This document shows positions 27,404 through 27,957 of a stretch of DNA of 64,000 bases, one piece after another. Source of the stretch: Sphingomonas sp. URHD0057 (lineage in GTDB: Bacteria; Pseudomonadota; Alphaproteobacteria; Sphingomonadales; Sphingomonadaceae); NCBI RefSeq assembly GCF_000620665.1, contig NZ_JIAU01000006.1, positions 186,001 through 250,000 on the forward strand, given 5' to 3'. A model generated the notes under the pieces. It saw only the letters and a program-made list of their open reading frames with translations. It ran no database searches and was not told where the DNA came from. How positions within the stretch are numbered: the stretch's first letter is position 1; each line of letters begins with the position of its first letter. Position numbers and translations under genes: made by a program.

Positions 27404-27540
27404 TTGCCTGTCAAACCTCGAAACGGCCGGGAAGTGCCAACGGCCGTAAGGCTCGCTTCTGTCGGAATATTTTACGCAATCCGGTCGATCCCTTTCAGGC
27501 ATTTTCGCTAAAACCGCAGAAATCTGCCGTTTATTCGAAT

Positions 27541-27556
27541 TGGCACGCCCATTGCT
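27541..27556 (+). promoter_or_regulatory. Consensus sigma-54 promoter
   Basis: TGGCACG (27541-27547), four spacer bases, then TTGCT (27552-27556). The GG at 27542-27543 and the GC at 27554-27555 are ten bases apart, as required for the -24/-12 elements. It matches TGGCACG-N4-TTGCW with no mismatch. The expected start site is about 27566. No coding gene lies on this strand in the next kilobase, only the terminator at 27592. Confidence 0.65.
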
Positions 27557-27565
27557 ACTATGTTT

Positions 27566-27644
27566 GCGTCCACACTTGGTTCCACGCCACGAAGGGGCGG
27601 TGCAGCGGTTCTCTGGTCCAGCTGCTCCGCCCCTTCCTCTTTTT
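27566..27644 (+). ncRNA. Candidate sigma-54-dependent small RNA
   Basis: A plus-strand transcript of about 79 bases predicted from the sigma-54 promoter to the U-tract of the intrinsic terminator. About 26 unstructured bases come first, then a long hairpin that makes up most of the RNA. Both flanking genes (GT4 and grxD) are on the minus strand and end or start outside it, except that the last two bases overlap the grxD stop codon. Analogous sigma-54-driven small RNAs (for example nitrogen-regulated NrsZ in Pseudomonas) exist, but no family match can be claimed. Confidence 0.55.
27592..27644 (+). terminator. Strong intrinsic terminator of the candidate small RNA
   Basis: A 15-base stem with one T-T mismatch pairs 27592-27606 with 27621-27635, a 14-base loop, then CCTCTTTTT. 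The U-tract is on the plus strand; the minus strand has no T-run after the stem, so it does not serve grxD. Confidence 0.85.
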
Positions 27645-27957
27645 AGGCTTCGGCCCCCAGCAGCTGCTGAAGCTCACCGCTCTCGAACATCTCCATCATG
27701 ATGTCGGAACCGCCGACGAACTCGCCCTTCACGTAGAGCTGGGGGATCGTCGGCCACTCGGAATAGTCCTTGATCCCGGCGCGGATCTCCTGGTCCTGGA
27801 GCACGTCGACGGTCTCGTATTTGGCGCCGAGCCGGTCGAGGATCGCGATTGCGCGGCTGGAAAAGCCGCACTGCGGAAACAGCGCGGTGCCCTTCATGAA
27901 CAGGACGATGTCGTTCTGCTTGACGAGGTCGTCGATGCGGCTGGTAGCATTAGTCAC
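27643..27957 (-). CDS. grxD: Monothiol glutaredoxin
   Basis: A 104-aa CGFS-type glutaredoxin, starting at GTG 27957 with GGAG seven bases before. The active-site CGFS occurs in FPQCGFSSRAIAIL; further marks are SEWPTIPQLYVKGEFVGGSD, the glutathione-binding TIP and GGSD parts. Monothiol glutaredoxins carry [2Fe-2S] clusters with glutathione and work with BolA in iron-sulfur delivery; bolA is directly upstream and overlaps by eight bases. Stop codon is TAA. Confidence 0.96.
   Translation of the reverse strand: MTNATSRIDDLVKQNDIVLFMKGTALFPQCGFSSRAIAILDRLGAKYETVDVLQDQEIRAGIKDYSEWPTIPQLYVKGEFVGGSDIMMEMFESGELQQLLGAEA

Follow-up and report, generated by a model that had tools for sequence, protein, structure and literature searches.

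A probable PrsR/sigma-54-activated small RNA beside grxD in Sphingomonas and related genera

The locus and its predicted transcript

The window analysed here is a stretch of 64,000 nucleotides (64 kb) from Sphingomonas sp. URHD0057. Within it, two neighbouring genes lie on the minus strand: a GT4-like ORF and, at 27643-27957 in the ORF list, a monothiol glutaredoxin gene which we take to be grxD, the name used in a preliminary description of this DNA. Between them lies a plus-strand sigma-54 promoter, TTGGCACGCCCATTGCT (27540-27556), with a predicted start at 27566-27567, towards which grxD is convergent. The box reads TTGGCACG-CCCA-TTGCT with correct GG-N10-GC spacing, and the exact string TGGCACGNNNNTTGCW occurs only once in the 64-kb window, in agreement with the perfect promoter that the preliminary description had proposed. 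Matches with at most one mismatch number three in the window, where shuffles average 0.62; three are also reached in 2/100 shuffles, so the box by itself is not decisive. TGGCAC and TGC are both present at the proper distance, and rpoN and enhancer-binding proteins are encoded in the window's genome, as expected of a sigma-54-dependent transcription unit.

Downstream of the box, the covariance model R1 places an sRNA of 77 nt at 27566-27642 on the plus strand (84.8 bits, the window's own sequence being inside the model). This is close to the transcript of about 79 bases put forward earlier; its start is predicted and the RNA is presumed to be expressed. The 5′ element, GUCCACACUUGGUUCCACGCCA (27568-27589), carries a first C/U-rich motif, UGGUUCC, may form a small hairpin and is mostly invariant in 44 aligned genus sequences (L014, at a contig end, was left out of this RNA alignment), with AAACC and ACC variants on its 3′ side. 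The main hairpin occupies 27591-27636, as seen in the fold, the genus alignment and the covariation. It comprises 10 + 5 pairs with one T/T mismatch between them, or 17 pairs in the predicted fold, and in the genus alignment its loop, GGUUCUCUGGUCC (27607-27619), bears a second motif, CUGGUCC. A T-rich terminator tail, CTCTTTTT, follows at 27637-27644. For the 80-nt RNA the predicted folding energy is -38.4 kcal/mol (z = -5.1), a value that 0/200 shuffles equalled, and the stem and U-tract described earlier behind the promoter are borne out. A simple terminator scan of the window did not report the hairpin at 27591-27636, the likely cause being the scan's 8-base loop limit.

No coding gene was recognised on the plus strand at the RNA, where the sole overlap is a frame of 53 aa from 27540. 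We rejected a coding function, since this frame begins within the promoter and loop lengths differ by single bases. The earlier view of a plus strand free of genes between two minus-strand neighbours therefore stands.

Conservation in the genus and across the family

A BLAST search of 27503-27650 against 61 genomes (the window's own and 60 relatives) gave a match in 30, namely the own genome, 28 of the 36 same-genus relatives and one unrelated match of 24 nt. Scanning a named collection with a sequence pattern gave 32 stretches. Sphingomonas or Sphingomicrobium is the label of 28, and two are chance matches (L072, Prevotella; L079, Donghicola), which were dropped together with the unrelated L031. 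The divergent L078 was left out of the genus alignments and kept in the count of 97 upstream regions given below. The 61 loci reduced to 48 distinct sequences, 45 of which were used for upstream and promoter conservation. The TGC at -12, which is absent from the selecting pattern, is invariant in 45/45 genus sequences. The 100% presence of TGGCA(C/T) in pattern-selected loci carries no weight because the selecting pattern required it.

Model R1 found the RNA in 27/27 same-genus genomes (own included, E ≤ 8.7e-12) within a draw of 396 genomes of the order. Moreover, it recovered six of the eight same-genus relatives missed by BLAST, two of these six (G013 and G018) being members of the model. 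All 27 same-genus loci were fetched and each has the sigma-54 box and an adjoining grxD. The preliminary description had named conserved flanking genes without the promoter or hairpin as the pattern that would tell against it; the opposite is found, the box and the RNA being kept beside grxD. An alignment of 46 genus sequences has the stem paired in 98.8% of its cells, and at 5/9 pairs both partners have changed. Of five covariation measures, the one for further pair types did not exceed shuffles (167/500).

Outside the genus, R1 matched 29 genomes at 25-36 bits. Three of these loci were fetched: L206 is an unrelated terminator, and L207 and L208, both of genus g45, are true. We also compared 30 grxD loci from 30 genera, the best 30 of 68 genomes with a match. 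In 24 a hairpin RNA comes after a sigma-54 box, the resemblance being loose in L219, L226, L227, L231 and L234, and in six (L211, L218, L225, L230, L235 and L237) none was found in the stretch examined beside grxD. With 24/30 of these loci carrying box and RNA, a unit of this kind is older than the genus. The common family form is approximately CCCGAA-UGGUCUUCGA-GAGGCGG...CUGGUCUCC...CCGCCUC-CCCGAA with a separate terminator after it, and its motifs UGGUCUUC and CUGGUCUCC occupy the positions that UGGUUCC and CUGGUCC have in the window's genus. Across the forms, the motif types are UGGUCC, CCGAUC and UGGUCUCC.

A second model, R2, was built from the 13 of 18 aligned sequences that aligned well, a choice that favours its stem. 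In these 13 family sequences both sides change at 10/11 pairs, and 0/500 shuffles score as high. Covariation of the stem in related genomes, suggested earlier as a check on the hairpin, is thus seen in genus and family alike. R2 detected a related RNA in 116/396 genomes of the order, one in each, from 21 genera that all belong to the window's family, and across the 396 genomes it gave no match in the window's own genus. The kinship of the genus and family forms thus rests on their position, their promoter, the upstream motif 1 described below and their paired motifs, with g45 intermediate. Among the best 30 of the 116 R2 loci the sigma-54 box is present in 30/30 (that of L263 by a separate alignment) and grxD is convergent in 30/30. 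Rfam 15 gave nothing at or above the gathering threshold in the window, the best sub-threshold matches being far below it, and on 19 family loci it returned tRNAs only.

These loci bear on whether the hairpin acts only in cis, as a two-way terminator of grxD, the plus-strand RNA being simply antisense to the grxD 3′ end. In the window the T-run does overlap the grxD stop codon (27643-27645), and some relatives are, by eye, T-rich on both hairpin strands. However, a terminator needs no conserved loop or 5′ element, antisense pairing is automatic for any sequence, and in the 30 R2 loci, all from other genera, the RNA starts 127-449 nt from grxD, which makes this reading very improbable. Judged by sequence comparison the hairpin is more than a terminator, its loop being largely invariant in the genus and other genera adding a separate terminator-like hairpin. 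Still less credible, and hardly to be entertained, is a chance sigma-54 match that happens to precede an ordinary terminator: the motif is short and two further one-mismatch matches lie within the window, but the box, motif 1, their spacing and a covarying stem are all conserved. The unit is therefore beyond chance, as the preliminary description had argued from the promoter and terminator. Taken together, the anatomy of the RNA, its conservation and the class of its promoter are established at the level of comparison between genomes.

Motif 1 and the activator

Upstream conservation also led to an element absent from the preliminary description. Motif 1, TGTCGGAATATTTTACG (27460-27476, plus strand), is a 17-nt inverted repeat of the form TGTCGG-N5-TTKACR (TGT-N11-ACR) and a predicted PrsR upstream activating site, with a 63-nt spacer to the box and some 98 nt ahead of the point where the transcript is predicted to begin. 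The window's copy ends in TTTACG and has 0 mismatches to the degenerate consensus. At -80 to -83 from TGGCAC, motif 1 is found with at most one mismatch in 92/97 distinct sRNA upstream regions and with at most two in 97/97, against 0/97 within one mismatch and 3/97 with two for a reversed-string control; the counts at sRNA loci are partly circular because the consensus was derived from those loci. The sites at the prs operon and the published promoter layout, both considered below, are independent of that consensus. Loose matches (at most two mismatches) number 11 in the window against 2.47 expected, and the window's genome has 20 matches with at most one mismatch where a control has 3, most such matches elsewhere being unexplained. 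Of the nine sigma-54-like boxes in this genome, the sRNA box alone is accompanied by motif 1 at a distance of up to 140 nt (0 mismatches; the next best has 4).

We rejected motif 1 (the -75 element) as a promoter of GT4, since GT4 is the left neighbour only at the window's own locus among 60 (L209-L268; tblastn E ≤ 1e-10) and the distance from element to box is constant. As the left neighbour is not GT4 at the 59 other loci, motif 1 seems to be part of the sRNA unit. In one genome (G013, locus L276), motif 1 and a sigma-54 box also occur on the reverse strand near 1501, with their starts 59 nt apart, and downstream of them lies what may be a small membrane protein.

The available text of Haft et al. 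2006 (PMC1569441) describes PEP-CTERM genes preceded by a 17-nt motif ending TTTACA and then a sigma-54 motif, with a mean spacer of 62.8 nt (S.D. 10.6). It points to PrsR as the binder from phylogenetic profiles and terms the PrsK signal obscure. An RpoN-dependent PEP-CTERM gene has been demonstrated in Aquincola, according to the available text of PMC9850573. Judged against the text of PMC1569441, the 17-nt motif of this promoter class is present in the window and, with at most two mismatches, in 97/97 regions; the 63-nt spacer in the window lies within the corresponding range of 32-92 nt, and motif starts span 4 nt over the 97 regions. PrsR itself is encoded in the window's genome, where it scores 677 bits against TIGR02915 (cut-off 502.6). 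It is one of five strong enhancer-binding proteins there, namely PspF, NtrX, PrsR (with PrsK adjoining) and two unnamed ones. No plausible PEP-CTERM protein gene lies downstream of the box on the plus strand, and the sRNA is therefore a member of the PrsR promoter class and not of the gene class.

The same repeat recurs at the prs operon. A search for it in 15 genus genomes led to prsK, which adjoins motif 1 in 7/30 fetched loci, and in the window's own genome motif 1 stands beside prsK too. In 20-kb stretches around prsR (20 genomes, 18 genera), motif 1 lies upstream, at the operon's far end, in 17/20. The total over these stretches is 36 sites, compared with 5 for reversed controls, and L327, L337 and L338 show no clear prs site. 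When only the 1.7-3.1 kb upstream of prsR was considered motif 1 was missing in 17/20, mostly because the site is further upstream. At the loci checked it stands just before a glycosyltransferase gene (L321 and L325, the protein of the latter passing TIGR03013) or prsK (own genome). No sigma-54 box was found at the prs-operon motif 1 site, so another factor could bind both loci. PrsR (E ≤ 1e-140) occurs in 325/396 genomes of the order, and its co-occurrence with the sRNA, in 115/116 family-form and 27/27 genus-form genomes, is weak evidence because PrsR is so common. The exceptions are G351, with the sRNA and no detected PrsR, and G350, with PrsR and no detected sRNA. In genus g24 the RNA is present in 38/39 PrsR-positive genomes and, among those listed, in neither of two without PrsR. 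By eye, the leaders of glycosyltransferase-prsK-prsR operons (L321, L325, L328 and L329) have inverted repeats around the Shine-Dalgarno sequence; an alignment of 10 prs-operon leaders gave no consensus structure.

Could a sigma-54 sRNA of this kind answer to a different activator, be it PspF, NtrX, an unnamed NtrC-like regulator or an unknown binder of motif 1? The genome does encode five strong enhancer-binding proteins, motif 1 occurs at the prs operon without a sigma-54 box, and a second palindrome, CGCAGAAATCTGCC (also given as GGCNGAAATCNGCC; 27515-27528), lies by the promoter, and between pspF and pspA the window's genome has TCAGAAATCTGACC, which resembles its core. In the 45 genus sequences this palindrome stands out as an island of conservation (-30 to -9), and it is weaker in 48 sequences mostly of other genera. 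When palindrome and box were sought at fixed spacing in 41 genus genomes, 33 matched, the matches being sRNA loci, one PspC gene (G014) and many unrelated singles. Given such mixed matches we did not retain the palindrome as an activator site; its function is unexplained and it may be the site of a second regulator or an architectural one. Against PspF, most of the correctly oriented pspF upstream regions (those of about 16 of 30 loci) have another recurrent palindrome, one like TGGTGGNAAATCCCACCA, and the sigma-54 promoters of stand-alone PspC genes are without the sRNA palindrome, except in G014, and in the window's genome without motif 1. PspF is therefore not favoured. Against other activators in general, the layout of motif 1 is that of the PrsR-class promoter in the available text of PMC1569441, and we regard control by a regulator other than PrsR as improbable.

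Since motif 1 and its spacing match the published layout and the repeat recurs ahead of prsR, activation of this sRNA by PrsR and sigma-54 is the most likely reading, the shared site pointing to PrsR control. The preliminary description had looked to nitrogen- or carbon-limited growth and to rpoN; the sigma-54 part of that context is supported, with PrsR, and not a regulator of nitrogen or carbon, as the likely activator.

Several other sigma-54 promoters came to light. Stand-alone PspC-domain genes have a conserved sigma-54 promoter in 29/30 fetched genus loci (L149-L178), the case in the window's genome (L082:3177-3531, C3:969176 on) being without motif 1, and a PspF regulon outside pspABC is possible. 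Elsewhere in the window's genome (L048, C7:164037) a sigma-54-like box stands directly before a gene whose product of 231 aa is, as judged by eye, EF-hand-like and probably exported. At L081:3239-4965 an unnamed NtrC-type response regulator points away from both a sigma-54 box and an efflux adaptor/ABC transporter locus.

Proposed action and relation to known systems

We consider it probable that the locus encodes an sRNA of about 77-79 nt, made by sigma-54, switched by PrsR at 27460-27476, ended by the hairpin and pairing with mRNAs. PrsR, the response regulator of PEP-CTERM/exosortase exopolysaccharide, would sit at motif 1 and turn the RNA on, sigma-54 RNA polymerase would start it at about 27566 and the transcript would stop at the hairpin terminator. 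UGGUUCC in the 5′ element and CUGGUCC in the loop would then base-pair, probably with Hfq, with mRNAs from other loci at their G-rich ribosome-binding regions, and this pairing would lower the translation of surface or envelope genes while PrsK-PrsR is active. Duplex energies of the sRNA against prs-operon leaders in 9 genomes gave no signal (z -1.8 to +2.1).

The RNA could instead bind a protein or another RNA as a sponge or decoy, its twin motifs being two copies of one ligand site. Two similar motifs do occur in both RNA forms, and in L207 of genus g45 they both shift alike relative to the window's genus, to CGAUCC in the 5′ element and CCGAUC in the loop. However, in L208, of the same genus, CCGAUC is seen in the loop alone and the 5′ element differs. 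C/U-rich motifs adjoining a Rho-independent terminator are usual in pairing sRNAs, and no result points to a protein partner. We thus hold a sponge or decoy to be unlikely, and action by base pairing at the two C/U-rich motifs to be the probable one.

More tentatively, and short of an expectation, we propose that the PEP-CTERM/exosortase regulon may have a non-coding arm, in which, over much of the sphingomonad family, one grxD-side sRNA per genome, turned on by PrsK-PrsR and sigma-54, retunes many mRNAs through its twin motifs. If so, the building of exopolysaccharide and the expression of envelope or redox genes would shift as one programme, and in the window's genome the sRNA might account for most of what PrsR drives through sigma-54. 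Being present in multiple genera with a precisely readable promoter, it could serve as a direct reporter for the PrsK signal. Moreover, it would offer a way into the post-transcriptional control of sphingomonads, a group with pollutant degraders and producers of gellan-type polymers among its members, and it is a candidate for a new RNA-database family.

The Qrr and CrcZ sRNAs are likewise driven by sigma-54 with an enhancer-binding protein (LuxO and CbrB, respectively). Their promoter logic is alike, whereas the regulators, sequences and hosts are different. Alphaproteobacterial sRNAs of the CcsR/cuckoo type, which have CUCCUCCC loops, resemble the window's RNA in being short, with two hairpins and exposed C-rich motifs. 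The window's RNA differs from them in its motif, UGGUYYC, its sigma-54 promoter and its lack of an Rfam match. In the open-access literature, with subscription papers largely outside its scope, we found no description of such a sphingomonad RNA, none tied to PrsR and no RNA of the PEP-CTERM/exosortase system.

PrsR-class PEP-CTERM promoters, as set out in the available text of PMC1569441, share with this locus the 17-nt motif, a spacer of about 63 nt, the sigma-54 box and PrsK-PrsR; they drive protein genes, whereas the window's promoter would drive a non-coding RNA. SuhB of Sphingopyxis (PMC6563040), compared by description and not by sequence, is also a sphingomonad sRNA, itself trans-acting and Hfq-dependent; it is 61 nt long and itself under growth-rate control, and RpoN/sigma54 is unmentioned in the available text. 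GlmY of enterobacteria, under GlrR/QseF (available text of PMC6075780), is likewise a sigma-54 sRNA with a two-component enhancer-binding protein, a TGT-N-ACA repeat and an envelope theme. However, its upstream activating site is TGT-N12-ACA and not TGT-N11-ACR, its locus is different and its mechanism probably so; unlike the GlmY type, the gene described here does not lie beside the kinase-regulator operon, the sRNA being on contig C5 and prs on C8. Outside the sequence comparison lie SuhB and the Zymomonas Zms RNAs; with this scope, the RNA is a new family within a known kind, that of sRNAs governed by sigma-54 and enhancer-binding proteins such as GlmY, and it brings into that kind a regulator, PrsR, previously unlinked to any RNA in the searchable open-access literature.
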